From contig DGIZ01000074.1 in NCBI GenBank assembly GCA_002386585.1, forward strand, positions 2,182 to 27,436: a stretch of 25,255 bases of DNA, read 5' to 3'. The DNA is from Brevundimonas sp. UBA4609 (GTDB lineage: Bacteria > Pseudomonadota > Alphaproteobacteria > Caulobacterales > Caulobacteraceae). Every line of letters begins with the position of its first letter. Within the stretch, counting starts at the first letter, position 1. The position numbers were made by a program, and so were the translations under genes. Below, piece after piece: positions 1 through 23,636 of the stretch. Under the pieces are notes generated by a model, which saw only the letters and a list, made by a program, of their open reading frames with translations, did not search any database and was not told the DNA's origin.

Positions 1-243
1 GAGAGCCTGAACGTCGTCTCCCTGCCGGAGCTGTCGCTCTACTCCAACCGCGACCGCATGGGCGTGGCCGAGTTCTCGGGCTTCCTCTACGACGCCCGCA
101 CGGGGATGCCGCTGGGCGCCGTCACGCCGATGATCGGCCAGTACAAGATCCGCAGCCACAAGGCCTTCATGATGATCACCTGGGGCCAGCAGCTGGCCCA
201 GCCGGGCGAGCGTGATCCGGGTTCGAGCTGGAAGGAATTCTAG
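1..243 (+). CDS. C-terminal part of an unidentified protein (5' end outside window)
   Basis: The frame is open from base 1 to the TAG at 241-243 and gives the last 80 residues of a protein whose start lies upstream. The visible part has no Cys cluster, no membrane helix and no motif I can name. It contains a GFLYDARTG stretch and a MIGQYKIRSHKAF stretch and ends in SSWKEF. The pattern of short beta-like segments with a phrase like FLYDARTGMPLG recalls small envelope lipoproteins of the DUF6655 type, but this is a weak memory match. An imperfect hairpin follows the stop, and nadD lies downstream on the same strand. That it is coding is fairly sure; its function is unknown. Confidence 0.7.
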   Translation, partial: ESLNVVSLPELSLYSNRDRMGVAEFSGFLYDARTGMPLGAVTPMIGQYKIRSHKAFMMITWGQQLAQPGERDPGSSWKEF

Positions 244-251
244 CGCGAGCG

Positions 252-273
252 CTCGCTCCGTTCGCGGAGCGAG
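252..273 (+). terminator. Stem-loop after the first gene, possible terminator
   Basis: CTCGCTCCG (252-260) pairs perfectly with CGGAGCGAG (265-273) around a TTCG loop, starting 9 bases after the stop codon at 241-243. No T-tract follows, so it may be a weak or Rho-assisted terminator or simply an RNA stabiliser. Confidence 0.35.
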
Positions 274-446
274 ACAGCCGCTTCGGACCGTGTTAGGGCG
301 CAGGTGAGCATAAGGCGTTGGCCGCGCTCATCCGTTCGCCGCCGCCGCAAGAGACGCCCTTGTCCTTCTTCCACGCCGGTCCTGCGCCGAAAGGCTCCGG
401 TCTTCGCCGAGGCGCCCTGCGCGACGGGCTGGACCTGGCGCCGGGG

Positions 447-1022
447 ATGAAGGTCGGCCTGTTCGGCGGCTCGTTCAATCCGGCCCACGACGGCCACGCC
501 CATGTGGCGGCCACCGCCATGCAGCGGCTGGACCTGGACCGGGTGGTCTGGCTGGTCTCGCCGCAGAATCCGCTGAAGTCCGGACACGAGACCGCCCCAC
601 TGGCCGAACGCATGGCCTCGGCGCGCGCCGTGGCGGCGAGCGTCGGCCCGGCCATGATCGTCTCGGACTTCGAGACGCGGGCGGGCACGCGCTGGACCGT
701 CGACACCCTGCGCGCCATCGTCGCCCGTCATCCGGGCGTGCATTTCGTCTGGCTGATGGGATCGGACAATCTGGCGGGCTTCCATCGGTGGAGAGGCTGG
801 ACCGACATCATGCGGCTGATGCCGGTGGCGGTGATCGCCCGGCCGGGCAGTCTGCTGGACAGCCGTACGGCCCCGGCGGCGGCGCGCTTCGCCCGCTATC
901 GCATTCCCGCCGCCCAGGCGGGTCTGCTGCCCAATCTCGAGGCGCCGGCCTGGACCTATCTGACCGCGCCGCTGAACCACCGCTCCTCCACCGCCATCCG
1001 GGCCACGCGCGCGGCGGGGTGA
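447..1022 (+). CDS. nadD: Nicotinate-nucleotide adenylyltransferase NadD
   Basis: NadD transfers AMP from ATP to nicotinate mononucleotide, making deamido-NAD in cytoplasmic NAD synthesis. The nucleotidylyltransferase signature GGSFNPAHDGH is at residues 7-17 (H14 and H17 bind ATP), and the second motif SSTAIR lies near the C-terminus. The 191 residues from ATG 447 cover the whole family core. The frame stays open upstream, with TTG codons at 318 and 360 and a relative-like segment (GLRRGALRDGLDLAPG) just before the ATG. A start at TTG 360, preceded by AAGAGA, would give about 220 residues and cannot be excluded. It is followed by rsfS and rlmH, the common alphaproteobacterial order. Confidence 0.93.
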   Translation: MKVGLFGGSFNPAHDGHAHVAATAMQRLDLDRVVWLVSPQNPLKSGHETAPLAERMASARAVAASVGPAMIVSDFETRAGTRWTVDTLRAIVARHPGVHFVWLMGSDNLAGFHRWRGWTDIMRLMPVAVIARPGSLLDSRTAPAAARFARYRIPAAQAGLLPNLEAPAWTYLTAPLNHRSSTAIRATRAAG

Positions 1023-1040
1023 AGAGTCGTCGCAGGCCGG

Positions 1041-1069
1041 GTGACCTTTCACGCCGGGCGTGCTAGACT
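1041..1069 (+). promoter_or_regulatory. Possible promoter for rsfS-rlmH
   Basis: GTGACC (1041-1046) and TAGACT (1064-1069) are separated by exactly 17 bases and resemble sigma-70 -35 and -10 boxes. They lie in the 135-base gap between nadD and rsfS. This is inferred from sequence match only. Confidence 0.3.
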
Positions 1070-1157
1070 GGAGTTTTAGTAATCGCCTCGGAGCCCTCCG
1101 CTGACCCCCTCGACCGCGCATGATGCGCAAGACGCCGTTTCGAACGCGGCGCACGAA

Positions 1158-1592
1158 ATGGACCTGATGGATTCCGTCCATTCCGAAGACGGTCAGGCCG
1201 AGGACGGCCCCAGTAGCGACGAGCGCCAGCCCCTGCCGGTCGGCGCGACCGAGCTGGAGCAGGCCATCCTTGCCAAACTCGACGAAGACAAGGCCCAGGA
1301 CATCGTCCTGATCGACCTGCGCGGCAAGAGCCCGATGTCCGACGCCATGATCGTGGCCTCGGGCCGCTCGCACCGCCACGTCGGCGCCGTCGCCGACCAC
1401 CTGCTGCGCCTGTTCAAGGAGCAGGGGCTGGGCAAGGTGAAGGTCGAAGGCCTGCCGCATTGCGACTGGGTGCTGCTGGATGCGGGCGACGTCATCGTCC
1501 ACCTGTTCCGCCCGGAAGTGCGCACCTTCTACAACATCGAAAAGATCTGGGCGGTCGACAGCGCCCACCGCGGCGGTCCTGTCCGCGGCTGA
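1158..1592 (+). CDS. rsfS: Ribosomal silencing factor RsfS
   Basis: RsfS (Iojap/DUF143 family) binds ribosomal protein uL14 on the 50S subunit and blocks subunit joining when nutrients are short. The 144-residue product has an acidic, low-complexity N-terminal stretch of about 30 residues. The compact RsfS domain follows, with the family segments DIVLIDLRGKSPMSDAMIVASG, DWVLLDAGDVIVHLF and FYNIEKIW. ATG 1158 lacks a clear ribosome-binding site. An in-frame CTG at 1101, preceded by GGAG at 1090, could add 19 residues. rlmH follows 27 bases after the stop, so the two are probably cotranscribed; both act on the large ribosomal subunit. Confidence 0.92.
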   Translation: MDLMDSVHSEDGQAEDGPSSDERQPLPVGATELEQAILAKLDEDKAQDIVLIDLRGKSPMSDAMIVASGRSHRHVGAVADHLLRLFKEQGLGKVKVEGLPHCDWVLLDAGDVIVHLFRPEVRTFYNIEKIWAVDSAHRGGPVRG

Positions 1593-1619
1593 TCTTTCCT
1601 CTGACGGCGGGCTGACCTC

Positions 1620-2084
1620 ATGAAGCTGGCGATCGCGGCCATCGGCAAGCCGGGCCGCGGTCCCGAGGCCGCCCTGGCCGACGACTACGCCCGGCGGGCC
1701 ACCCTTTCGGGGCGGCCGCTGGGCCTGGGTCCCCTCGAACTCATCGACCTTGAGCCGAAGAAGCCCGGCAAGGCGCTGGAGGCCGAGTTGCTGCTCGCCG
1801 CCGCCGAAGGCGCGCATCTGATCGCCTGCGACGAGCGGGGGCGGACCTATTCCTCGCGCGCCTTCGCCGACCACGTGGCCGCCTTGCGCGATCAGGGGGA
1901 GCGGCGGCTGGTCTTCGTCATCGGCGGCGCCGACGGCCTGGACGAGAGCGTGCGCCGCGCCGCCCGTTCGACCCTGGCCTTCGGGCCGCAGACCTGGCCC
2001 CACGCCCTGGCGCGCGCCATGCTGGCCGAGCAACTGTATCGGGCCGTGACCATCCTGGCCGGTTCGCCCTATCATCGCGACTGA
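1620..2084 (+). CDS. rlmH: 23S rRNA (pseudouridine1915-N3)-methyltransferase RlmH
   Basis: RlmH is a SPOUT-class methyltransferase that methylates pseudouridine 1915 of 23S rRNA in helix 69 of assembled ribosomes. The 154-residue product matches the usual family length. It shows the knot-forming SAM-binding segments FVIGGADGL (about residues 99-107) and the C-terminal AEQLYRA...GSPYHRD. It starts at ATG 1620, 27 bases after rsfS. Its TGA (2082-2084) shares one base with the ATG of the next ORF (TGATG), so translation of the chimeric downstream ORF should be coupled to rlmH. Confidence 0.95.
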
Positions 2085-3058
2085 TGCGATCCGGGGCCGT
2101 TCTTCTTCTGACCTCCTCCAGCCTGCTGCTGGTCCTGGCCGGGCCGGCGGCCAGCCAGCGCGCGGCCCAGCCGAACGCCGAGCTGACCCGGCTGCAGGCC
2201 GAGTATCGCGACGAGACGGCCCGCGCCCGCCGCCTGCGCGCCGAGGCCGCCGCCGCCGCCATCGACGCCAATCCCCTGCTGGAAGGCGCCACCTACTCCA
2301 TTCTGGAAGAGGACGAGGACCGCAATATCTGGCGTATCGACGCCTTCCCCACGACGGATGAAGAGGCCGAGGGGATCGCCGAAATCCTGCGCGCCACGCC
2401 GGGGCTGGAGGTGATCGTCGAGAAGCTGGCCGACGCCGATTGGCTGGCCATGAGCCTGTCGGGCCTGCCGCCGGTCGAGGCCGGACGCTTCTTCGTCTAC
2501 GGCGCGCACGATCAGGGCAAGGTGCCTGAGGGCCGGGTCAACCTGAAGATCGACGCGGGCGCCGCCTTCGGCACCGGCCACCACGGCACGACGGTCGGCT
2601 GTCTGGAGGCCTTCGACAATCTGCTGAGGACCGAGACGTTCGAGAAGGTGCTGGACGTCGGCTGCGGCACGGGCGTGCTGGCGATTGCAGCTGCGAAGAC
2701 CGGTTCGCCCATCGCCGTCGGCACCGACATCGACGAGCCCTCGGCCCGCATCGCCAATGAGAATGCGGCGATCAACGACGCCAAATGCGAGTTCTACTTC
2801 GCCGATGGTCTGAGCGATGCGCGCATCGCCCAGCACGCGCCCTATGATCTGGTGTTCGCCAATATTCTGGCCGCGCCGCTGGTGTTCCTGGCGCCCGAGA
2901 TCGGCGCGGCGCTGAAGACGGGCGGGGTCGCGATCCTGTCGGGCCTGCTGCGGACGCAGGAGGAGCGGGTGCTGGAGGCCTATCTGCCGCTGGATTTCGT
3001 GGTGGAGCAGACGATCCATCATGACGCGTGGAGCGCGCTGCAGTTGCGGAAGAAATAG
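2084..3058 (+). CDS. prmA: Chimeric ORF: EnvC-like export signal and coiled coil fused to N-terminally truncated PrmA (L11 methyltransferase)
   Basis: PrmA trimethylates ribosomal protein L11 in the cytoplasm. Residues about 60-324 are a clear PrmA catalytic part: the family segment [12 protein letters not shown] motif [10 protein letters not shown] (189-197) and the post-I motif NILA (from N260). Residues 1-59 do not belong to PrmA. They form a signal peptide (hydrophobic core about 5-20, small residues near 22-24) and a heptad-like stretch rich in Glu, Arg and Ala, as at the start of EnvC/M23-type murein hydrolase activators, which commonly follow rlmH in this group. The first 20-30 residues expected of PrmA are missing. 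The join is inside GCC codons at 2246-2260. As written, the product would be sent to the periplasm, where PrmA has no substrate. It may be a deletion scar or an assembly error. Confidence 0.8.
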
Positions 3059-3069
3059 GGCGCTAATTT

Positions 3070-3210
3070 CCTTCTCCCCTTGTGGGAGAAGGTGGCAGCC
3101 GAAGGCTGACGGATGAGGGGTTTCTCGCCGTTTGCCGAGTCCCTTCATCCGCAGTCGCGAGACCCCTCATCCGGCTCTGCCGGGCCACCTTCTCCCGCAA
3201 GGGGAGAAGG
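3070..3210. repeat. Intergenic palindromic repeat element (RIME-like)
   Basis: A 141-base imperfect palindrome fills the gap between prmA and the aminopeptidase gene. Each end is itself a hairpin: CCTTCTCCC (3070-3078) with GGGAGAAGG (3084-3092), and CCTTCTCCC (3188-3196) with GGGAGAAGG (3202-3210). The two halves also pair with each other, for example GGATGAGGGGT (3111-3121) with ACCCCTCATCC (3162-3172). This type of dispersed, non-coding mosaic repeat is common between genes of alphaproteobacteria. The right end stops 14 bases before the next start codon. Confidence 0.85.
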
Positions 3211-3224
3211 AGTAAGAGGCCCTC

Positions 3225-5051
3225 ATGCGCCAGACATTCGACGAAACCACCGATCCGTCCTTCGGGGCCAAGCACCTGCCTCTGCTCCGCGCCGAGATGG
3301 CCAAGCAGGGCCTCGACGGCCTGCTGGTCCCGCACGAGGACGAGCATCAGAACGAATACCTGCCCGACGCCAATGAGCGGCTGGCGTGGGTCAGCGGCTT
3401 CACCGGCTCGGCCGGGGCGGGCGTGGTGCTGAAGGACCGGGCGGCGGTCTTCGTCGACGGCCGCTATACGGTTCAGGCCAAGGCTCAGACGGACGAGGCC
3501 CTGTTCGAGCGTCAGCCGCTGAACAAGCTGGCCGACTGGCTGGCGGCCGTGCCGTCGGGCTCGGTGATCGGTTATGATCCGCGCCTGCACAGCCCCGATG
3601 CGCTGGCGAGCCTGCGCGCCGCGGTCGAGAAGGCCGGGGCGACGCTGAAGGCGGTCGAGGCCAATCCGATCGATCTGGCCTGGGGCGACGCCCGCCCGGC
3701 CCAGCCGCAGGCGCCGGTAGTCCCGCATGAGGACCGCTATTCCGGCGAGGACGCTGCATCCAAGCGCGCCCGCATCGGCAAGGCCATCGCCGACGCCTGG
3801 GCCGAGGCCGCTGTGCTGACGGCGCCGTCGTCGCTGGCCTGGCTGTTCAACATTCGCGGCGGCGACGTGATCCGCACGCCCCTGCCGCTGGGACAGGCGG
3901 TGGTGAAGGCGGACGGGACGGCCAAGGTCTTCCTCGATCCGGCCAAGGTGACGAACGAACTGCCGGGATGGCTGGGCGACGCCGTGACGCAGGAGGCGCC
4001 CGAAGCGCTGCCCGGCGCGCTGGACGCCCTGTCGGGGCGCAAGGTGATGATCGATCCGGCCGTGTCCTCGGCTTGGTATTTCGACCGGCTGGAAGCGGCG
4101 GGCGCGACCATCGTTCGCGGCATGGACCCCTGCGCCCTGCCGCGCGCCCAGAAGAACGCCGTTGAGATCGAGGGCAGCCGTCAGGCCCATATCCGCGACG
4201 GCGCGGCCCTGACCCGGTTCCTGCACTGGGTCGATACGGTCGCGCAGAAGACGCTGCCGGACGAGCGGGCGGTGGTCGAGGCGCTGGAAGGCTTCCGCGA
4301 GGCGACCGGGATGCTGAAGGATCTGTCCTTCGACACCATCGCCGGGGTCGGGCCGAACGGCGCCCTGCCGCACTACAAGCCGGTCGGGGCCAAGATCCGC
4401 CAGATGGAGGCGGGTTCGCTGCTGCTGGTGGATGGCGGCGGCCAATATCTGGACGGGACCACGGACGTGACCCGCACCATGGCCATCGGCGAGGGCACGG
4501 CCGATCAGCGCAGGATGTTCACCCTGGTCCTGAAGGGTCACATCGCCATGGCGGTGATCCGCTTCCCGGCCGGAACCAGCGGGCGTCAGCTGGACGCCAT
4601 CGCGCGCCAACCGCTGTGGAACGCGGGCTTCGATTTCGATCACGGCACGGGCCACGGCGTCGGGTCCTATCTGGGCGTGCACGAGGGGCCGCAGCGCATC
4701 GCCGGATGGGGCACGGACCAGCCGCTGCTGACCGGCATGATCCTGTCGAACGAGCCGGGCTATTACCGCGAAGGCGAGTGGGGCATCCGCATCGAGACGC
4801 TGCAGGTCGTCACGGCCCCGGCCCAGGTTCCGGGCGGCGAGCGGCCGATGCACGGGTTTGAGCAACTGACGCTGGCGCCGCTGGACCGCCGCCTGATCGA
4901 TACGGCGCTGCTGACGGCGGACGAGCGGGCCTATGTCGACGCCTATCACGCCGAGGTTCTGGCCAAGGTCGGCCCTCTGCTGGCCGACGGCGTACAGAAG
5001 GACGAGGCGGCGCTGGAGTGGCTGAAGGCGCAGACGGCCCCCTTGAAATAA
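3225..5051 (+). CDS. pepP: Aminopeptidase P family protein (Xaa-Pro aminopeptidase, M24B)
   Basis: This two-metal peptidase removes an N-terminal residue that is followed by proline. At 608 residues it is the long, three-domain form. Two creatinase-like N-terminal domains (about 1-320) precede the pita-bread catalytic domain. All five expected metal ligands are present: D403 and D414 in the [17 protein letters not shown] region, H477 in TGHGVG, E510 in SNEPGYY and E524 in RIETL. No signal peptide is seen, so it is cytoplasmic. The start at ATG 3225 has AAGAGG five bases upstream, directly beside the palindromic repeat. A strong hairpin follows the stop. The enzyme looks intact; its in vivo peptides are not known. 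Confidence 0.94.
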
Positions 5052-5075
5052 GGCCATACGGCGCCCATCTGAAGA

Positions 5076-5100
5076 GGGTCGGCGGATGCGCCGCCGACCC
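5076..5100 (+). terminator. Stem-loop between aminopeptidase P and the aldo/keto reductase
   Basis: GGGTCGGCGG (5076-5085) pairs perfectly with CCGCCGACCC (5091-5100) around ATGCG. It sits 24 bases after the aminopeptidase stop and 24 bases before the reductase start. There is no T-tract, so it could be a Rho-assisted terminator or a processing or stability element. Confidence 0.45.
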
Positions 5101-5124
5101 CCTCACATCAGAAGGAATGCGCGG

Positions 5125-6108
5125 ATGAAGATGCGCAAGCTGGGCCGTAACGGCCCTGAGGTCTCGGCCGTCGGTCTGGGCTGCATGGGCATGAGCGCCT
5201 TTTACGGCGGCGCCGACGAGGCCCAATCCATCGCGGTGATCCACCGCGCGCTCGACCTGGGCGTCACCCTGTTCGACACGGCCGAAATGTACGGCCCCCA
5301 CACCAATGAAGTCCTGGTGGGCAAGGCGCTGAAGGACCGCCGCGACGAAGCCTTCATCGCCACCAAGTTCGGCATCAATCGCCAGCCGGACGGCTCGGCC
5401 GTCACCGACGGCTCGCCCGCCAATGTGCGCCGCGCGGTCGAGGGCAGCCTCAGCCGTCTGGGCGTCGACCACATCGACCTCTATTACCAGCACCGCATCG
5501 ACCCCAATACGCCGATCGAGGAGACGGTCGGGGCGATGGCCGAACTGGTGAAGGAGGGCAAGGTCCGCTTCCTGGGCCTGTCCGAGGCGGCGCCCGCCAC
5601 CCTGCGCCGCGCCCACGCCGAGCATCCGATCACGGCGCTTCAGACCGAATATTCGCTGTGGAGCCGCGACCCGGAGGACGAACTGCTGGGCGTGGTGCGC
5701 GAACTGGGCATCGGCTTCGTGCCCTACAGCCCGCTGGGTCGGGGCTTCCTGTCGGGGGAGATCAAGTCGATCGACGACCTGGCGCCCGACGACTTCCGCC
5801 GGACGAACCCGCGCTTTGCGGGCGACAACTTCCAGAGGAACCTCGATCTGGTCGATGCGGTCGGCGCCATCGCGGCGGACAAGGGCGTGACGGCGGCGCA
5901 ACTGGCCCTGGCCTGGGTGCTGGCGCAGGGAGAGGATCTGGTCCCCATCCCCGGCACGCGCCGCATCGCCACGCTGGAGCAGAACGCGGCGGCGGCGGAC
6001 ATCGTGCTGACGCCGGATGATCTGGCGCGGATCGAGGCCGTCTTCCCGCGCGGGGCGGCGGCGGGCGAGCGCTATGCGCCCGGCGGCATGAGTTCGCTGA
6101 ACCGTTGA
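5125..6108 (+). CDS. Aldo/keto reductase
   Basis: This is an NADPH-dependent carbonyl reductase with the (beta/alpha)8 AKR fold, 327 residues, cytoplasmic. The catalytic tetrad is complete: D51, Y56 ([10 protein letters not shown]), K81 (IATKFG) and H123 (YYQHRIDP). The C-terminal cofactor-binding part carries PIPGTRR and the SPLGRGFL segment typical of the AKR13/YakC-like branch. An ATG at 5086 is in frame, but 5125 is preferred: AAGGA lies nine bases upstream, and family members begin at [19 protein letters not shown]. The start at 5086 would also fall inside the preceding hairpin. The substrate cannot be predicted. A strong two-way terminator follows. Confidence 0.93.
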
Positions 6109-6111
6109 TGT

Positions 6112-6149
6112 GAAAACGCCTCCCTCGCCATCGCGGGGGAGGCGTTTTC
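6112..6149. terminator. Bidirectional terminator between convergent genes
   Basis: GAAAACGCCTCCCTCGC (6112-6128) pairs with GCGGGGGAGGCGTTTTC (6133-6149) with one G-T wobble. The stem is flanked by an A-run on the left and a T-run on the right, so it can work as a Rho-independent terminator on both strands. It lies between the convergent aldo/keto reductase and DUF2147 genes. Confidence 0.75.
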
Positions 6150-6169
6150 GTTCGGGCTGTGCGCCTCGA

Positions 6170-6592
6170 TTATTGGACGCGGGTCCAGGTCTGGGTCTTG
6201 CACAGGGGGGCGACGATGCAGCCGCGCAGGCGCAGCGTATTGTCGTTGGTCAGGGTGATGGTGCCGCGATAGGTGCCGCCGTCCTCGGGGTTGTAGACCG
6301 AGCCGCCGCGCCATTCGGTCGGGCCGCCGGTGAAGCCCGACAGCATCCGCAGGCCGCGCAGGGGGCGGTCGCGCAGGGACTCGTCCTTGTTGCGCTGATC
6401 CTTGACCTCGGGGTTGGCGCGGATGTGGCTGGAGGTGACGAGGACGCCGCACAGGGCCTGGCCGCAGCGTTCGATGCGGACCTGGCCGCCGTTGGTCGGG
6501 GTCTGCCACAGACCGGTGGGGTCGCTGGCGAGGGCCGGAGAAGCGAGGGCGGCGGCTGCGACGGCGAGCGCCGTCAGGACGGAGATCTTCAT
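6170..6592 (-). CDS. DUF2147 family secreted protein
   Basis: A 140-residue protein with a Sec signal peptide (MKISVLTALAVAAAALASPALA, cleavage after ALA near residue 22). The mature part is a small beta-rich DUF2147 domain: SDPTGLWQTP, then GQVRIERCGQALCGVLV, and a C-terminal GTYRGTITL...LRLRGCI segment. Four Cys in the mature part could form two disulfides in the periplasm. Members of this family have no established biochemical function. ATG 6592 is chosen because AGAAGGA lies just upstream and the signal peptide begins there; an in-frame ATG at 6688 would bury the signal. A palindromic operator-like site lies about 110 bases upstream. Confidence 0.88.
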   Translation of the reverse strand: MKISVLTALAVAAAALASPALASDPTGLWQTPTNGGQVRIERCGQALCGVLVTSSHIRANPEVKDQRNKDESLRDRPLRGLRMLSGFTGGPTEWRGGSVYNPEDGGTYRGTITLTNDNTLRLRGCIVAPLCKTQTWTRVQ

Positions 6593-6700
6593 CGGCGTTT
6601 TTCCTTCTGACGGATCGTCGAGGCGACCCCTTGGTCGAAGGGTGGGCCGGGTTTCGGTCTGAAACAAGGCCGAAATTGTGAACTTCACTCAATGATTACA

Positions 6701-6714
6701 TGACCTTAGGTCAA
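6701..6714 (-). promoter_or_regulatory. Operator-like palindrome overlapping a possible -35 box upstream of the DUF2147 gene
   Basis: TGACCT-T-AGGTCA (6701-6713) is a perfect 6+6 palindrome around one base, in an AT-rich island. On the minus strand it overlaps TTGACC (6714-6709), which resembles a -35 box facing the DUF2147 gene. No convincing -10 was found at the ideal distance. Binding by a dimeric repressor or activator is inferred. Confidence 0.4.
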
Positions 6715-6773
6715 GTTGAACGCGCTGCGAACGCTTAAGGCGATGGATTCGGGCGGCTTTTGCCGAGGGCCGG

Positions 6774-7387
6774 TCAGCCGCCGCGCGGGCGGCGTGGACG
6801 GGTTCCGGCGTTGGAGCAGGGCGAATAGCCGTCGCGCCAGACGCGGCCCATGGTCAGGCGGCTGGCGTCGGCCAGGGCGCGGCAGTCGGCGGCCTGATGC
6901 ATCTGAGCCGCCGCCAAGGCTACGGAGGCGCAGGCGAAGGCGTCCTCGGCAGCGTCGTGGTGGCGGAAGGCGACGCCCAGTTCGGCGCAGACGTTGTTCA
7001 GCTTGTGCGAGGCGAATTCGGGCCAGCTGATCTGGGCCAGCTTGACCGTGCAGAGGTAGTCGAATTCGGGATAGGTCAGGCCGTAGTGGTCGCAAGTGTT
7101 GCGGATGACGCTGACGTCGAAGGCGGCGTTGTGGGCCAGCACCGTGCGGCCTGCGAGGCGCGGGGCGATGGCGGCCAGAACGGCGGGGAATTCGTCGGCG
7201 TCCTCGACCTGTTCGGGGCCGATGCCGTGGAAGGCGATGTTGAACCCGGCGAAACGCATCCCCGGCGGGCGGATGTAGTGGTGCTCGACGGATTCGATGA
7301 CGCCGTCGTTGATCCAGGCCAGACCGATGGAGCAGGGGCTGGCCCGCTGTTCATTGGCGGTTTCGAAGTCGATGGCGACGGCGTGCA

Positions 7388-7388
<1 letters not shown>
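6774..7388 (-). CDS. DEDDh 3'-5' exonuclease (DNA polymerase III epsilon-like)
   Basis: This is a 204-residue RNase T/DnaQ-type exonuclease with no polymerase or other domain attached. ExoI motif DFE is at residues 7-9 (AIDFETAN). ExoII is in the AHNAAFDVSVI segment. ExoIII is HDAAEDAFA, where the His five residues before the Asp marks the DEDDh class. Such stand-alone exonucleases trim 3' ends of DNA or RNA; which substrate applies here cannot be told. The start codon ATG (7388-7386) shares its first base with the TGA of ligA (TGATG), so it is translationally coupled to the ligase gene, which suggests a repair role. The last 25 residues are basic and probably disordered. Confidence 0.92.
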
Positions 7389-9827
<2,439 letters not shown>

Positions 9828-9858
9828 CGCGCCTCAAAGATTCCTGCCGGAGCCCTCC

Positions 9859-10824
9859 ATGCGTCCTGTCCTCGTCAGCCTGTCCGTGATCGCCGCCGCC
9901 CTGACGCTGGCCGCCTGTGAGACGACGACCGCGCCTGTGGTCGAGACGCCCGCTGTCGAGGCGCCGCCGTCGGGCGATTACGCCCAGTTGATGGACGACC
10001 TGCGCATCCTGTCGGCGGACGACATGCAGGGGCGCGACACCGGGTCCGAGGGCGGGGCCAAGGCACGCGACTACATCGTCGGGCGGCTGGAGGCGCTGGG
10101 CGTTCAGCCTTCGCCGATGGGCCGTCTTCAGCCGTGGGAGATGCTGGGCCGCACGCGCGAGGGGACCAAGACCTATAACGGGACCAACATCATCGGCGTC
10201 ATCCCCGGCACGCGCGTGGCCGACAAATACATCGTGGTGACGGCCCACTATGACCACGTCGGCGTCAACGACGGCCAGATCTTCAACGGCGCGGACGACA
10301 ACGCCTCGGGCGTGGCGACCATGCTGGAGCTGGCCAGGCGGTTGAAGGCCAACCCGCCCGAGCACAGCGTCCTGATCGTGGCGCTGGACGGCGAGGAGCG
10401 GGGGCTGCTGGGCGCCAAGCATTTCGTCGAGGCGCCGCCGGTGCCGCTGCACGCGATTTCGATGAACCTGAACTTCGACATGACGGCGCGGGCCGACAGC
10501 GACGGCAAGCTGTGGGTGACGGGGACGTATCAGCATCCCTATTTCCGCCCGGTGCTGGATCAGGTTCCGGCGCGCCGGAACGTCGCCTTCGCCTTCGGCA
10601 AGGACACGCCCGAGGACAAGGGCGCCGACAACTGGGTCGAGGCGTCGGACCACGCCGCCTTCCACCGCGCAGGCCTGCCGTTCCTGTATTTCGGGGTGAA
10701 CTATCACCCGGACTATCACCGCCCCAGCGACGACTTCGAGAAGGTCAATCCGGCGGTGTTCCAGGACTCGACCGAGCTGGCGATCGGCGGCTTCCGGGCG
10801 CTGGACCGGTGGCTGGATCAGTGA
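9859..10824 (+). CDS. M28 family metallopeptidase, lipoprotein
   Basis: This is a zinc aminopeptidase-type enzyme anchored by lipid. The signal peptide ends in the lipobox LAAC with C20 as the lipidated residue, followed by a Thr/Pro/Val-rich linker to about residue 38. The two-zinc site of the M28 family is visible: H130 (AHYDH), D146 (bridging, in GADDNASG), E179-E180 (DGEERGLLG, general base and ligand), D207 (NFDM) and H287 (HPDYHRPSDD). The product has 321 residues. It probably trims N-terminal residues from peptides in the periplasm; the specificity is not predictable. The start ATG 9859 is preceded by GGAG. It is divergent from ligA. Confidence 0.94.
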   Translation: MRPVLVSLSVIAAALTLAACETTTAPVVETPAVEAPPSGDYAQLMDDLRILSADDMQGRDTGSEGGAKARDYIVGRLEALGVQPSPMGRLQPWEMLGRTREGTKTYNGTNIIGVIPGTRVADKYIVVTAHYDHVGVNDGQIFNGADDNASGVATMLELARRLKANPPEHSVLIVALDGEERGLLGAKHFVEAPPVPLHAISMNLNFDMTARADSDGKLWVTGTYQHPYFRPVLDQVPARRNVAFAFGKDTPEDKGADNWVEASDHAAFHRAGLPFLYFGVNYHPDYHRPSDDFEKVNPAVFQDSTELAIGGFRALDRWLDQ

Positions 10825-10916
10825 CGGCTGTCGCAAAACGCTTGCAAAGATAGGCCTTGAAACCGCCGTCAGAGCGGCGTTCTGTTGCACCCCTCACCAG
10901 TCGAGGAAATACAGAG

Positions 10917-11540
10917 ATGTCGGCGACGCAGGGCTTTGATCTTCAGCGGGTGCAGAAGCTGCGCAAGGCGGCGCTGCTGGTCGGATTGATCGGCGTGGTC
11001 GGGCTGGCCTTCGTCAGCCGATCGATCGGCGGCGAGACCATGCTGCATGAGGGGCTGGAGGCGTTCGGCCTGGGCCTGATCGTCGTCTGCATCGTCGGGC
11101 GGGCTTGGTGCTCCCTCTATATCGGCGGGCGCAAGAAGGCCGAGATCGTGGATCGCGGACCCTATTCGATCAGCCGCAACCCGCTGTATGTCTTCAGCTT
11201 CATGGGAGCGTTCGGCGTGGGGGCGCAGACGGGCAGCGTGACGCTGGCGGCCGTCTTCCTGTTGCTGACGGTGGCGGTCTTCTACGCCACGGTGAAGCGC
11301 GAGGAGGCCTGGCTGGCGGGCGCCTTCGGCCAGACCTATGCGGACTATTGCGCGCGGACGCCGCGTTTCGGGCCGGACTTCTCCAAATGGCGCGACGCCG
11401 ACAGTCTGGAGGTGCGTCCGCAGTTCTTCCTGACGACGCTGCGCGACGGCCTGGTCTTCCTGCTGGCCGTGCCGCTGTTCGAGTCGGTCGAGCGGTTGCA
11501 GGACCTGGGCTGGTTGTCGGCCCTGGTGCGCCTGCCTTGA
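10917..11540 (+). CDS. Isoprenylcysteine carboxyl methyltransferase (ICMT)-like membrane protein
   Basis: A 207-residue integral membrane protein of the ICMT/phospholipid methyltransferase superfamily. Hydrophobic segments lie at about residues 18-38, 45-65, 95-130 and 180-200. The cofactor-binding family segment DRGPYSISRNPLYV and the downstream REEAWLAGAFGQTYADYCARTPRF are both present. Bacterial members methylate lipids or small acceptors using SAM, but most have no proven substrate. ATG 10917 is preferred over 10857, since GAGGAAA lies upstream and the earlier codon lacks support. The stop (TGA 11538-11540) overlaps the TTG start of the next gene, so the two are coupled. Confidence 0.88.
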   Translation: MSATQGFDLQRVQKLRKAALLVGLIGVVGLAFVSRSIGGETMLHEGLEAFGLGLIVVCIVGRAWCSLYIGGRKKAEIVDRGPYSISRNPLYVFSFMGAFGVGAQTGSVTLAAVFLLLTVAVFYATVKREEAWLAGAFGQTYADYCARTPRFGPDFSKWRDADSLEVRPQFFLTTLRDGLVFLLAVPLFESVERLQDLGWLSALVRLP

Positions 11541-12052
11541 GGGCATTGCCGATCCTGCTGGCGGGGGCGCTGGCCCTGACGGCCGCTTCCTGCGAACGTG
11601 GCGCGGCGCCCGACAAGGCCACGCAGGCGGCCGTCTTCAAGCACGACCTGCCGGAGGACGTGTCCGGCTATTACATCCCCACGACGGCGGTGCAGGTCGG
11701 CGACTGGCGGCTGCATCACCTGTTCATGGGCCAGGTGCCCGACTTCATGGCCTGGCGCGACGGGCAGCGGGCGGCGGGCTTTGCGCCGATCATGATGGAG
11801 TTCGAGGCGGGGGATAAGACGCGGCGCACGCGGCTGATTCCGACGGCCTATGACGTCACCGAGACGCGTGTGCGCTTCCAGGCGACGTCGCGGGATCTGG
11901 GGGCGGTATCGTTCGAGGGAAGGCTCGACCAGGATGCGCTGGCGAAGGCGCGGCGCAATCTGGGAGATCAGGGCGTGGTCCTGAAGGGGACGCTGAAGGT
12001 CGGGGGCCGGACCTTCAACGGGGTGTCGATGCGGTGGTGGGCGGGGGACTGA
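11537..12052 (+). CDS. Small lipoprotein or periplasmic protein of unknown function
   Basis: I do not recognise a family. The frame begins most sensibly at TTG 11537, four bases before the end of the upstream stop (TTGA overlap). It encodes MRALPILLAGALALTAASC, a short signal sequence whose Cys at residue 19 could be lipidated, although the lipobox AAS-C is imperfect. A second TTG at 11546 is possible. The mature part, about 150 residues, is beta-rich with GDWRLHHLFMGQ and a C-terminal KGTLKVGGRTFNGVSMRWWAGD. The overlap with the ICMT-like gene suggests joint expression. A hairpin covers its stop codon. Coding is well supported by frame and signal; function is unknown. Confidence 0.7.
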   Translation: MRALPILLAGALALTAASCERGAAPDKATQAAVFKHDLPEDVSGYYIPTTAVQVGDWRLHHLFMGQVPDFMAWRDGQRAAGFAPIMMEFEAGDKTRRTRLIPTAYDVTETRVRFQATSRDLGAVSFEGRLDQDALAKARRNLGDQGVVLKGTLKVGGRTFNGVSMRWWAGD

Positions 12053-12061
12053 TCCCCCGCC
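12040..12061 (+). terminator. Stem-loop straddling the stop codon of the small lipoprotein gene
   Basis: GGCGGGGGA (12040-12048) pairs with TCCCCCGCC (12053-12061). The CTGA loop holds the stop codon TGA (12050-12052). No T-tract follows. It lies between convergent genes, so it may be a Rho-assisted terminator. Confidence 0.4.
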
Positions 12062-12076
12062 GCTGATACCTGATCC

Positions 12077-12541
12077 TTAGGCGACGGTCGCCTTGACGAT
12101 CTTGCCCGGAGCGCGGGGCGGTTCGCCCTTCGGCAGGGCGTCGACGTGATCCATGCCTTCGATCACTTCGCCCCAGACGGTGTACTGGCCGTCCAGGAAG
12201 CGGGCGTCGTCGAAGCAGATGAAGAACTGCGAGTTGGCGCTGTCCGGGTTGGCGGTGCGGGCCATGGAGCAGACGCCGCGGACGTGCGGCTCCTTCGAGA
12301 ATTCCTGCTTCAGGTTCGGCTTGGACGAGCCCGAGGTGCCGGTGCCCGTCGGATCGCCGCCCTGGGCCATGAAGCCCGGAATCACGCGGTGGAAGACCAC
12401 GCCGTCGTAGAAGCCTTCCTTGGCCAGGTCGGTGATCTGCTTGACGTGGTTGGGCGCCAGGTCGTCGCGCAGCTTGATCACGACGTTGCGTTCGGCGCCG
12501 TCGCCGGTGTCCAGGGTGAAGGTCAGGGTTTGGTCGGCCAT
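12077..12541 (-). CDS. ppiB: Peptidyl-prolyl cis-trans isomerase, cyclophilin type (cytoplasmic)
   Basis: Cyclophilins speed up cis-trans isomerisation of X-Pro bonds during protein folding. The 154-residue product is a bare cyclophilin domain with no signal peptide, so it is cytoplasmic (PpiB type). The catalytic segment FHRVIPGFMAQGGDPTGTG is present with its Arg. So are MARTANPDSANSQFFICFDDARFLDGQYTVWGEV and the C-terminal PRAPGKIVKATVA. It starts at ATG 12541 with AAGGAG eight or so bases upstream. It is divergent from rlmE and convergent with the small lipoprotein gene, and appears monocistronic. Confidence 0.95.
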   Translation of the reverse strand: MADQTLTFTLDTGDGAERNVVIKLRDDLAPNHVKQITDLAKEGFYDGVVFHRVIPGFMAQGGDPTGTGTSGSSKPNLKQEFSKEPHVRGVCSMARTANPDSANSQFFICFDDARFLDGQYTVWGEVIEGMDHVDALPKGEPPRAPGKIVKATVA

Positions 12542-12621
12542 CGTGCGCTCCTTGAGGTTATGCGAGCCGGAATTGTGCGCGGGTCATAGCGGCTCAACGC
12601 CGTCAGGGCTATGTGGGAAGC

Positions 12622-13340
12622 ATGAGTGAAGACGAAAAGCCCGCCGACAAGCCTCAGGAACGCCGCCGCATGGTGCGTCTGCCCTCGGGCGGCACGGCGG
12701 CCGGGCGCAAGGTCGGCCAGAAGATCAAGACGGCCGACAAGAAGACCCTGTCCAGCCAGGCCTGGATCAAGCGGCAACTGTCGGACGAATGGTCCGACCG
12801 GGCGCGGGCCGAGGGCTGGCGCAGCCGCGCGGCCTTCAAGCTGATGGAGATCGACGATAAGTTTCGCCTGATCAAGCGCGGCTCGCGGGTCATCGACCTG
12901 GGCGCGGCGCCGGGCGGTTGGGTGCAGGTGGCGCTGGATCGCGGCGCGGCGGCGGTGGCGGGCGTGGACCTGCTGATGATCGAGCCGATTCCGGGCGCGA
13001 CGCTGATTCAGGCGGACTTCACCGATCCGGGCGTGGATCAGCAGATGCTGGACGCCATCGGCGGACCGCCGGACCTGGTGCTGTCGGACATGGCGCACAA
13101 CACCATCGGCCATCGCCAAACCGACCACTTGAAGATCATCGCCCTGATCGAGATCGCGGCCGACTTCGCCATCCGCACCCTGAGGCCAGGGGGGAATTTC
13201 GTGTCGAAGAACTTCCAGGGCGGCGACGCCGGCGGCGTGCTGAAACGCCTGCGCGAGGAGTTCGAGACGGTGAAGTATGTGAAGCCCGAATCGAGCCGCA
13301 AGGGCAGCGCCGAGGTCTTCCTGGTGGCGCTGAACAAGCG

Positions 13341-13344
<4 letters not shown>
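12622..13344 (+). CDS. rlmE: 23S rRNA (uridine2552-2'-O)-methyltransferase RlmE (FtsJ/RrmJ)
   Basis: RlmE methylates the 2'-OH of U2552 in the 23S A-loop during late 50S assembly. The 240-residue product has a basic N-terminal extension (about 1-50) and then the Rossmann domain with SAM motif DLGAAPGGW. The K-D-K-E tetrad is complete: K73 (AAFKLMEID), D156 (LSDMAHN), K196 (VSKNFQGG) and E231 (SAEVFLVA). ATG 12622 is preferred over the GTG at 12613 because GGGAAG lies just before it. The TAG stop overlaps by four bases the TAA of the convergent DUF2061 gene, so the two mRNAs share complementary 3' ends. Confidence 0.95.
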
Positions 13345-15484
<2,140 letters not shown>

Positions 15485-15490
15485 CCTGAT

Positions 15491-15525
15491 CCGCTCCCGG
15501 CCCCGGTCGGGAGCGGTTTTGTTTT
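15491..15525 (+). terminator. Rho-independent terminator of guaB
   Basis: CCGCTCCCG (15491-15499) pairs perfectly with CGGGAGCGG (15508-15516) around an 8-base loop and is followed at once by TTTTGTTTT (15517-15525). It is a textbook terminator seven bases after the guaB stop, separating guaB from the downstream MAPEG-to-guaA unit. Confidence 0.9.
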
Positions 15526-15549
15526 GGGCTAGTGGAACAGGAGACGGGC

Positions 15550-15948
15550 GTGACGATCGAACTCACCTATCTGGCGGCGACGCTGGTGCTCGCCCTGGTC
15601 CAGATTCTGCTGCCCGCCTTCGCCCGGACGCGCGAGTTCGGCCTGTCGTGGAACGCCGGGGCGCGGGACACGACGCCCGAGGCGCACAGCCCTGTCGTCG
15701 GCCGTCTGGAGCGGGCGCAGGCCAATCTGTTCGAGACCCTGCCGCTGTTCATCGGCGCCGTGCTGATCGCCCAGGTCGCCGATCGGACCGGCGCGCTGAC
15801 GGCGTGGGGCGCAGGCCTCTACTTCTGGGCGCGCGTCGCCTATATCCCGCTCTACGCCTTGGGCGTTCCCTATATCCGGTCGCTGGTTTGGCTGGTCTCG
15901 CTCGCGGGACTGGCGCTGTGCCTTCTGGCCCTTTTCATCCGAGTCTGA
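15550..15948 (+). CDS. MAPEG family membrane protein
   Basis: A 132-residue integral membrane protein of the MAPEG family (microsomal glutathione transferase-like), with four hydrophobic helices at about residues 3-22, 62-80, 85-105 and 108-128. The family hallmark RAQANLFETLPLFIGAVLI is present (E and N within the ERAQxNxxE motif). Bacterial members often lack a known substrate. GTG 15550 is chosen because AGGAGA (15539-15544) sits five bases before it; a GTG at 15532 would put the start ahead of this site. Its stop is one base before the TTG of the next gene, so it heads a compact unit ending in guaA. Confidence 0.88.
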   Translation: MTIELTYLAATLVLALVQILLPAFARTREFGLSWNAGARDTTPEAHSPVVGRLERAQANLFETLPLFIGAVLIAQVADRTGALTAWGAGLYFWARVAYIPLYALGVPYIRSLVWLVSLAGLALCLLALFIRV

Positions 15949-15949
15949 T

Positions 15950-17245
15950 TTGACCCCAGCCGCCCGCCTGGCCGCCGCCGCCGCCATCCTCGACAGCATC
16001 GCCCAAGGCCGCCAGCCCGCCGACGCCGTGCTCAAGGCCTGGAGCCAGCAGAACCGCTACGCCGGATCGCGCGACCGTCGCGCCATCGCCGAGCGCGTCT
16101 ATCAGGTGCTGCGCGCGCGCGGCCGCCTGTCGGCCTTCATGGGCGGGCGTCAGGACGGGCGCGCCCTGATCGTCGGCGCCCTGTCGGTGCTGGACGGCGC
16201 GACGCTGGAGGAGATCGAAGGCCTCTATAACGGCGAAGGCTATGGCCCGCGCCCCCTGTCCAAGCATGAGCGTGGCCGCATCGCGGCGCATGAGGACGCA
16301 GCCGATCTGGCCGAGGTCGCCCTGCCGGACTTCGTGACGGCGGACCTGAAGACGGTTCACGGCGACCGTTGGCGCGAAGAGGTCGAGGCCCTGAGCGGTC
16401 GCGCGCCGGTCGACCTGCGGGTCAATGGCTTGCGGACCACGATGGAAGAGGTCGAGGCCGAACTGCGCGACGCCGGCCTGTCGCCCCAGCGCACCGCGCT
16501 GTCCGCTTGGGGCCTGCGTCTGGACGCCGAGCCCGCGCCGAACGTGCAGCCGCTGGATGGCTTCCAGAACGGTCATTTCGAGATTCAGGACGAGGCCAGC
16601 CAAGTGGTCGGCTGGCTGTCCGGCGCCTTCCCCGGCGCGACGGTGGTGGATTACTGCGCGGGCGGCGGCGGCAAGACGCTGGGCCTGGTGCAGGCCATGC
16701 AGGGGCAGGGATCGCTGATCGCCTGCGACGTCTCGGCCAAGCGTCTGGACAATGTGAAGCCGCGACTGGCGCGCGCGGGCGTGGAGGCCGACCTGCGCCT
16801 GCTGGGCACGAACGGCGGCGGCGTCGAGGATCTGAACGGCCAGGCCGATGTGGTGCTGGTCGATGCGCCGTGCTCGGGCTCGGGCGCCTGGCGGCGTCGG
16901 CCGGAGGACATCTGGCGCCTGACGCCCGAAGAGGTCGCGCGCCTGCACGCGTTGCAGGTCCGTATTCTGGGGCAGGCGACCAAGCTGGTGCGGCCGGGCG
17001 GCCGTCTGGCCTATGTCACCTGCTCGGTGCTGGGCGTGGAGAATGAGGCCACGGCCGCTGCCTTCGAAGCCGCGCACGCGGACTTCAAGCCCGTCCCCGT
17101 CGGCGATGCGGCGCACAGCGCGGACCTGACCGAGGCGGGGCGCGAGCGCCTGACCGCGCTGGCGCAAGAAAACCGCCTGCGCCTGTCGCCCGCCGCCACC
17201 GGCACGGACGGCTTCTTCATCGCCCTGTATGAGCGCATCTCATGA
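15950..17245 (+). CDS. rsmB: RsmB/NOP-family RNA (cytosine-C5)-methyltransferase
   Basis: This enzyme methylates C5 of a cytosine in rRNA (C967 of 16S rRNA for E. coli RsmB). The 431-residue product has an N-terminal helical RNA-binding (NusB-like) region and a Rossmann core with SAM motif VVDYCAGGGGKTLG. Both family cysteines are present: C308 in DAPCSGSG (release, motif IV) and C358 in VTCSVL (nucleophile, motif VI). The best start is TTG 15950, one base after the MAPEG stop; no ATG lies near the expected N-terminus. Its stop overlaps the next ATG (ATGA). The target base is inferred from the family only, and a paralogous target is possible. Confidence 0.9.
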   Translation: MTPAARLAAAAAILDSIAQGRQPADAVLKAWSQQNRYAGSRDRRAIAERVYQVLRARGRLSAFMGGRQDGRALIVGALSVLDGATLEEIEGLYNGEGYGPRPLSKHERGRIAAHEDAADLAEVALPDFVTADLKTVHGDRWREEVEALSGRAPVDLRVNGLRTTMEEVEAELRDAGLSPQRTALSAWGLRLDAEPAPNVQPLDGFQNGHFEIQDEASQVVGWLSGAFPGATVVDYCAGGGGKTLGLVQAMQGQGSLIACDVSAKRLDNVKPRLARAGVEADLRLLGTNGGGVEDLNGQADVVLVDAPCSGSGAWRRRPEDIWRLTPEEVARLHALQVRILGQATKLVRPGGRLAYVTCSVLGVENEATAAAFEAAHADFKPVPVGDAAHSADLTEAGRERLTALAQENRLRLSPAATGTDGFFIALYERIS

Positions 17246-17933
17246 GGCTTGAGCGCTACGGCGCCGTCACGGTCCTGCCGGTGATGGCGGCGCCGGCCGA
17301 GTATGGCGAACACCTGCGCGCGCGCATCGACCCGTTGATGACCGGCATCGGGCCGGTCGAGGGAGCGGTGGCGCTGACGGCGGCTCTGGCGCGGCTGGAG
17401 GCGAGGGGAGAGGCGCCGGATCTGATCCTGTCGCTGGGCTCGTGCGGGTCGCGCGTGCTGGATCATGCGGCGGTCTATCAGGCGTCGTCCGTGGCCTATC
17501 GCGACATGGACGCCAGCGCCCTGGGGTTCGAGAAGGGGGTGACGCCGCTGCTGGACATGCCCGCCGTTCTGCCGCTGCCGTGCCCCATCCCTGACGTGCC
17601 GAGCGCGCGCCTGTCGACCGGCGGAAACGTCGTCTCGGGCGCCGCCTATGACGCCATCGACGCCGAGATGGTGGACATGGAGACCTGGGCGCTGGTGCGG
17701 GCCGCCCAGACCTTCGGCCTGCCTCTGGTCGCGCTGCGCGGGGTGTCGGACGGCAAGGCCGAGCTGACGGGCCTGCACGACTGGACCTCGACCCTGCATC
17801 TGGTGGACGAGAACCTGGCCCAGGCCGTGGACGGCCTGATCGCGGTGCTGACGGATCACGGCCTCTCCGCCCTTGAAATTCCGGCCCTCCAAGGCCAAAC
17901 CCTCGCCCAATCGCTCGCCCCGGATTCGACCTC

Positions 17934-17937
<4 letters not shown>
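17242..17937 (+). CDS. 5'-methylthioadenosine/S-adenosylhomocysteine nucleosidase-like protein
   Basis: This is a phosphorylase-superfamily (PNP_UDP_1) hydrolase that splits MTA or SAH into adenine and the thio-ribose part, recycling by-products of SAM reactions. The 231-residue length matches E. coli MtnN. Aligned landmarks are [15 protein letters not shown] (phosphate-site Gly loop), the [12 protein letters not shown] segment, V144-D145-M146-E147 (the ribose-binding ME pair) and D170 in GVSDG (catalytic Asp). E20 in APAEYG may be the partner acid. It overlaps rsmB upstream and guaA downstream by four bases each (ATGA), so all are translationally coupled. Recovered adenine can feed purine salvage, which fits its place beside guaA. 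Confidence 0.87.
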
Positions 17938-19496
<1,559 letters not shown>

Positions 19497-19562
19497 GTGG
19501 GAAGGGCGACGAACTCCAATCGGCGCCCTGTCTCTGCCTCTGGGAAAATTCCGGCGAGTAAA

Positions 19563-20276
19563 ATGATGACCACCAGTGAAAAGATCTATTCGGGCAAGAC
19601 AAAAGATCTGTATGCCCTGTCGAACGGCAATATACTTCTTGCCTTCAAGGACGACGTCACTGGTTCGGATGGCGTGATCGACCCAGGCGCCAATACCGTT
19701 ATCGGTCAGGTTGAGGGCAAGGGACGGAAGTCTCTCGCCATGACGGATTACTTCTTCAAGCGCCTTCACGCCGCTGGCGTCGCCACCCACCTCGTCCATG
19801 TCGATCTCGAGAAGGGCGCCATGGAAGTTCGCCGGGCCGAGCCGCTGGGCAAGGATGTCAGCGGGGCGGGCGGATTTGAGTTTGTCTGTCGAACCCGCCC
19901 CTGGGGCAGCTTCATCCGCCGTTACCAGCAATACATTCGGGACACGGGGCGACCGCTCGACTATCTCGTGGAGATCACGATCAAGGACGATGAACGCGGC
20001 GACCCGCTCATCAACGATGACGCCATTATCGCCCTCGACCTCTTGAGCACGGCCCACCTTGAGCAAGCCAAGCAGATGACTCGCCATGTGTGCCGCATCG
20101 TCGAAGCCGATCTACGTGAAAAGGGCCTCACCCTGATCGACATGAAGATCGAAATCGGTCTGGTCGACGGTGAGGTCGTGGTCATCGACGAAATCTCCGC
20201 CGACGCCATGCGGGTCATGGATGAGGCGGGCAAGGTGCTGGATCACGCCGTAGTGTATGAAAGACTGATCCATTAG
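19563..20276 (+). CDS. purC: Phosphoribosylaminoimidazole-succinocarboxamide synthase (SAICAR synthetase), Firmicutes/Bacteroidetes-like type
   Basis: PurC joins CAIR and aspartate with ATP to give SAICAR in purine synthesis. The 237-residue product shows the N-terminal GKTKDLYAL and FKDDVTGSDG segments, VCRTRPWGSFIRRY, and the signature LIDMKIEIG...DEISADAMRVMD. The forms GKTKxxYAL and DDVTGxDGxxDPGAN are those of clostridial and related PurC rather than the usual alphaproteobacterial one. Bases 19561-19620 are about 42% GC (25 of 60), against 67% for 19441-19500, and the codons are less G/C-ended, which suggests transfer. ATG 19563 (or 19566) starts the domain; the upstream ribosome site is weak. 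It lies 66 bases after guaA. Whether it is the only purC or a second copy cannot be seen here. Confidence 0.9.
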   Translation: MMTTSEKIYSGKTKDLYALSNGNILLAFKDDVTGSDGVIDPGANTVIGQVEGKGRKSLAMTDYFFKRLHAAGVATHLVHVDLEKGAMEVRRAEPLGKDVSGAGGFEFVCRTRPWGSFIRRYQQYIRDTGRPLDYLVEITIKDDERGDPLINDDAIIALDLLSTAHLEQAKQMTRHVCRIVEADLREKGLTLIDMKIEIGLVDGEVVVIDEISADAMRVMDEAGKVLDHAVVYERLIH

Positions 20277-20286
20277 TGCAGAGCAT

Positions 20287-20313
20287 CAGCTTCAGCTTGA
20301 TCTGCTGAGGCTG
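20287..20313. other. Stem-loop between convergent purC-like and amidohydrolase genes
   Basis: CAGCTTCAGC (20287-20296) pairs with GCTGAGGCTG (20304-20313) with one G-T wobble around a 7-base loop, 11 bases after the purC stop. There is no T-tract. It may help end transcription of one or both convergent genes. The rest of the 87-base gap shows nothing else. Confidence 0.35.
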
Positions 20314-20363
20314 GTGCGGCGGGTTCACCGGGCTTCAGGTCTGATGCCGGCCCTGATGACCAG

Positions 20364-22106: not shown

Positions 22107-22122
22107 GGACGCCTCGTTCAGC

Positions 22123-23502: not shown

Positions 23503-23600
23503 GGGAACTCCTCCTCTCTACTCTAGGTCAAATCCCCTCGACACGAAAGCAGGCCCCGTTCAACCGTAGCTGTAGCGGGTATCTGATGCTGTCGTTCCGA

Positions 23601-23631
23601 AACGCCTGCCAAGTTCTTCGCAGCAGGCGTT
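23601..23631 (-). terminator. Stem-loop downstream of the sulfatase gene
   Basis: AACGCCTGC (23601-23609) pairs perfectly with GCAGGCGTT (23623-23631). On the minus strand the stem starts six bases after the sulfatase TAG and ends in a short TTT. It may partly terminate sulfatase transcription before the barrel gene. The rest of the 134-base gap (23503-23636) holds the GAGGAGG ribosome site, and I see no clear promoter. Confidence 0.5.
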
Positions 23632-23636
23632 CCAAC

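Follow-up and report, generated by a model that had tools for sequence, protein, structure and literature searches.

Does the reading frame that follows rlmH in this genome encode a real fused protein, or was it put together during assembly? The window, which is the whole stretch of 25,255 bases of Brevundimonas DNA analysed here, contains a 324-residue reading frame at 2084–3058 that starts like the EnvC-like protein of related genomes and continues as the ribosomal methyltransferase PrmA. In our reading, which we hold at a probability of about 0.88, this fused gene is an assembly misjoin, in which two loci far apart were connected through a short GCC repeat common to both. The frame is very probably not a real gene and, as biology, probably without importance.

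Table 1. Features around the junction, in window coordinates
Feature	Position	Strand	Basis
Left block: nadD-like, rsfS-like, rlmH, first 59 envC-like codons	1..2260	+	Relatives' rlmH locus
rlmH (23S rRNA pseudouridine-1915 N3-methyltransferase)	1620..2084	+	NCBIfam NF000988, 237.9 bits against a cut-off of 199
EnvC-like N-terminus, 52 codons	2084..2239	+	Aligned with the post-rlmH ORF of relatives
Join: 21 GCC-rich bases coding AEAAAAA in both frames	2240..2260	+	Present in both source loci
PrmA, native residue 24 onward to the stop	2261..3058	+	PF06325; 80 relative loci
Right block: prmA, aminopeptidase P, genes to guaA	2240..19492	+	Collinear with the prmA locus of six close relatives

Composition of the fused reading frame

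The original prediction of an in-frame chimera was confirmed by the reading frame itself, by its PrmA domain and by the protein that follows rlmH in relatives. The ATG overlaps the final base of the rlmH stop codon, and the frame consists of 52 residues of an EnvC-like N-terminus, seven shared residues (AEAAAAA) and PrmA minus its first 16 residues (MSESAVQVIARGDRAP in the closest relatives), which agrees with the arithmetic of the lengths (324 − 52 = 288 − 16 for the frame and native PrmA, respectively). The coiled-coil part, first put at about 55–59 residues, is therefore corrected to 52 plus the seven shared ones, and the loss from PrmA amounts to 16 residues instead of the 20–30 proposed. 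The probable signal peptide and the start of the coiled coil were called by eye.

In comparison with native Brevundimonas PrmA, residues 53–324 of the frame correspond to native residue 17 to the end with 91–95% identity to the closest relatives, while the first 16 residues are swapped for 52 residues of a probably exported protein. The Pfam domain PF06325 (PrmA) extends from residue 53 to the end and scores 211.7 bits against a gathering cut-off of 22. With 233 bits, the frame stays below the cut-off of 244 for the NCBIfam PrmA equivalog NF001784, and the native relative P0003 does likewise (234.8 bits). In comparison with an EnvC-like protein composed of a coiled coil and an M23/LytM domain, the frame has the first 59 residues and the place directly after rlmH in common, with four differences over residues 1–59 from the 364-residue protein of G009, but it lacks about 300 residues including the M23 domain (281–359 in the native relative P0034). 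A Pfam domain search detected no C-terminal M23/LytM domain in the 324-residue frame, and the NCBIfam profile search gave no entry of the EnvC equivalog NF008644 for the window ORF. Since native P0034 itself reaches only 23.9 bits against the NF008644 cut-off of 270, the EnvC label denotes resemblance only.

Source loci, shared stretch and host draft

A DNA search of window positions 1–20000 against nine Brevundimonas genomes placed the left and right blocks at two different loci in all nine. Over the first 19.5 kb of the window, a single switch between loci was observed against each of the six close relatives (G001, G002, G003, G007, G008 and G009), where the two loci occupy separate contigs, except in G003, which has them 1.92 Mb apart. 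Distance and strand could be measured in the 4 of 16 relatives that carry both loci on one sequence: rlmH and prmA are separated by 1.92 Mb in G003, 1.45 Mb in G011 and 1.54 Mb in G016, on opposite strands, and by 1.06 Mb in G010, on the same strand.

The left block (nadD-like and rsfS-like genes named by eye) was matched at the DNA level in 9/9 genomes. Its match reaches 2260 in G001, G002, G007, G008 and G009, stops at 2256–2257 in the distant G010, G011 and G016, and breaks off at a run of N in G003 (2168). The rlmH gene is present in all 16 relatives, and in 15 of them a 358–364-residue ORF starts at most 31 bases from the end of the rlmH match, in line with the proposed order of rlmH followed by an EnvC/M23 gene; the sixteenth, in G003, is interrupted by N. 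The post-rlmH protein of relatives has a coiled coil, as judged by eye, and in P0034 a C-terminal M23 domain. In G003 (B. diminuta ATCC 11568; L084 / L112), the run of N breaks the envC-like gene after residue 28, within the coiled coil, and leaves it 429 bases too short by our own arithmetic, as would be expected of a scaffold gap whose size had been guessed, although some stretches of sequence are masked.

The right block (guaA named by eye) matches G008:C3:175821–193324, G003:C5:224477–244993 and G009:C7:47745–66071, as well as contigs C58 of G001, C2 of G002 and C12 of G007. Its first matching base is 2240 in five genomes and 2239 in two, and the match extends slightly further to the left in G008 (from 2222) and G016 (from 2217). 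The block is scattered over three places in the distant G010, G011 and G016; therefore, gene order in this region varies within the genus. Among 80 relative prmA loci, aminopeptidase P was found downstream within the fetched flank in 73, as the original prediction had stated, and rlmH was found near prmA in none, 14 of the 80 having less than 2 kb of upstream sequence. The native PrmA N-terminus, which is absent from the fused frame, is present in 80/80 loci, where the normal start is preceded by an in-frame stop codon. This rules out an envC-head start shared by PrmA orthologues, the alternative under which the N-terminus would be native. The sole likeness to the envC head among these loci was seen in L068 (30 residues, 37%, E 0.71). 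Four loci that align from residue 18–31 (L022, L064, L066 and L081) were considered as second chimeras and rejected, as their PrmA starts are ordinary and the similarity across a stop or the 5′ region is due to chance. One locus titled Bordetella sp. (MAG), L009, is 93% identical to the window's PrmA locus and has a Brevundimonas neighbour aminopeptidase P at 96%, so its title or bin looks wrong.

The junction itself was searched for as a 39-base pattern with at most three mismatches, and it was found in 1 of 131 genus genomes, the window's own, and in 0/130 others; since the pattern misses junctions in species differing by more than 3/39 bases, this bears mainly on close relatives. In a protein search with residues 1–110, the best 120 of 1798 proteins cover at most 60% of the stretch (by Pfam domains, 118 are PrmA and two, P0016 and P0034, are M23). 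None of these 120 spans the junction, which counts against a real fusion because a chimera should rank first. The same join thus occurs in no independent genome or protein among the 130 genomes, the 80 loci and the 120 best proteins.

The five GCC codons at 2246–2260, in which the join had been placed, were found as described and lie inside a longer stretch common to both sources (2240–2260). In G001, G002, G007 and G009, the matches of the left and right blocks have precisely these 21 bases in common, an overlap measured against relatives, as the strain's own native prmA start lies outside the draft. Native envC and prmA starts were compared within the six close relatives among the 16. The longest identical run is 22 bases in G001, 21 in G002, 15 in G009 and G007, 10 in G008 and 9 in G003, where the run of N hides the relevant envC stretch. 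In the first five genomes, the run lies inside the AEAAAAA-coding stretch and in the same frame. Both genes read the shared stretch in one and the same frame, so a switch within it preserves the frame and no selection is needed. Common metagenome assemblers usually start from words of about 20–27 bases, and the 21–22-base identity between envC and prmA in two of the six close relatives is about the size of an assembler's smallest word. Caution is advisable here, since alanine-rich coding in high-GC genomes can give in-frame identical GCC runs in unrelated genes. A misjoin at such a run therefore produces a clean, believable in-frame fusion which is accepted by gene callers and domain scans.

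The host draft (G000), which we take to be a metagenome-assembled or similar draft, comprises 3,062,111 bases in 270 contigs, with 88.66% completeness and 0.17% contamination. On the envC side, relatives continue outward into sequence found on contigs C88 and then C228 of this draft, the end of C88 lying 3.37 kb (G009 coordinates) or 3.02 kb (G008) from the join. On the prmA side, they continue into sequence on contig C76, where the match ends 3.31 kb (G009) or 3.38 kb (G008) from the join and at most 74 bases from the contig end. Since the outer neighbours of both breaks are kept on C88, C228 and C76, there was no large deletion, and the proposed removal of the rest of envC and everything between is contradicted. 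DNA queries from two relatives per side did not find the gap sequences (about 3 kb on each side) in G000, as expected if small contigs were dropped. The matches obtained for the gap stretches were dispersed-repeat copies (71–82%), one 124-base match of 75% on C22, others below 150 bases, and a few terminal bases of contigs C88, C76 and C69. Such queries also did not find the reciprocal junction (PrmA start plus EnvC C-terminus) in the draft, which contains no second prmA; both an intact prmA and this junction had been named in the original prediction.

Origin of the junction

A misjoin accounts for what was observed directly, namely two loci of origin in relatives, a stretch common to both at the switch, kept outer neighbours and no such junction elsewhere, as well as for the single switch and the two missing 3 kb pieces. 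Very probably, the strain would have both genes intact, an envC-like one after rlmH and prmA at another site upstream of aminopeptidase P, each carrying a similar GCC-rich AEAAAAA stretch (10–22 identical bases in the comparable close relatives). We infer short-read assembly at low coverage with a small word length. In the resulting de Bruijn graph, the two loci would meet in the AEAAAAA stretch, and where coverage was thin the assembler could continue the start of envC with the body of prmA, writing contig C69 and leaving both true continuations as pieces outside the genome bin.

In relatives the loci are separate, and here they meet at a shared short repeat; the scaffold of G003 also breaks inside the envC coiled coil, which we count in favour of a misjoin. 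Against it stand the reading frame kept across the join, the lack of a second prmA in the draft, the real rearrangements near prmA in G010, G011 and G016, and the identical run of just 10 bases in G008, G003 not being judgeable because of its N. According to PMC7111523, it is rare for a scaffold to join two organisms, and support from read pairs is typically missing in such cases; this rarity, which concerns joins between two organisms, is counted against a misjoin with that limit. PMC9661791 describes misassembled contigs as containing short tandem repeats more often, with more than 10% of breakpoints in repeats. The case resembles relocation-type misassembly of metagenomic contigs in having one switch, distant loci, a short repeat and no counterpart in any relative examined; such a misassembly is provable by reads, and the likeness here comes from sequence comparison.

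Alternatively, part of the chromosome might really be inverted, with one breakpoint in the micro-repeat of envC and the other in that of prmA; this would yield the fusion together with a reciprocal gene on the far side. The opposite strands of the two loci in G003, G011 and G016 are as required for such an event, the sequence flanking both breaks is kept as an inversion would leave it, the identical run reaches 21–22 bases in two of the six relatives, and rearrangements near prmA are known in G010, G011 and G016. However, we consider an inversion unlikely. The reciprocal junction with 3 kb on either side was not found in draft G000, and a single reciprocal contig of 6–7 kb should bin more easily than two 3 kb pieces, given that contigs down to 3164 bases are part of it. 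The junction is also in none of the 130 other genus genomes searched. An inversion would thus need a reciprocal junction missing by chance, a unique event and recombination at no more than about 20 bases, a short repeat for homologous recombination. It is quite improbable that a megabase-scale inversion between the GCC repeats put PrmA behind an export signal while the reciprocal gene was lost from the draft by chance. If this were true, an L11 methyltransferase would be tagged for export, and no intact EnvC-like protein would remain at the locus.

Identity of the left block is 96% with G003 and 91% with G008, G007 and G002, while the right block shows no such preference (90–96% to all six close relatives), as might be expected of a chimera of two co-occurring Brevundimonas strains or of a minority structural variant in the population. 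Either is very unlikely, as the reported contamination is 0.17% and so slight a difference in identity can arise from ordinary mosaic evolution. Hardly credible is the originally proposed event, in which slippage or microhomology would have deleted the DNA from envC to prmA, with loss or mis-sorting of PrmA, leaving an export-signal PrmA and no EnvC. Of the four measured relatives, G010 has the loci in the same orientation (1.06 Mb apart), which would permit it, but the loci lie 1.06–1.92 Mb apart and on opposite strands in three of the four. Such a deletion would take out about 1 Mb or more, against a draft of 3.06 Mb at 88.66% completeness, and the draft retains the inner neighbours at both loci (C88, C228 and C76).

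Repeats and the far end of the window

No tRNA was found in the window. Between prmA and aminopeptidase P, a palindromic repeat occupies window positions 3069–3211, with the core CCTTCTCCC-N5-GGGAGAAGG occurring twice and inverted arms of 28 bases. The gap downstream of envC contains a dispersed repeat of about 110 bases in G009, which has about 12 matching sites in G000, frequently in both orientations, and may belong to the same family. On contig C88 (L117), positions 3246–3292 lack about 1.1–1.2 kb of G003, G008 and G009 and carry about 45 unmatched bases instead. Upstream of native prmA in G009, L119 17011–18342 on the minus strand is a divergent, low-complexity long frame rich in Ala, Lys and Pro, a possible assembly breaker.

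Collinearity with G003, G008 and G009 ends just past guaA, at about 19492. The remainder of the window (19492–25255) contains a purC-like gene (19497–20276) followed by amidohydrolase-like, porin-like and sulfatase-like ORFs, all named by eye, parts of which match other places in G008 and G009. This break represents either an ordinary difference in gene content or a second misjoin.
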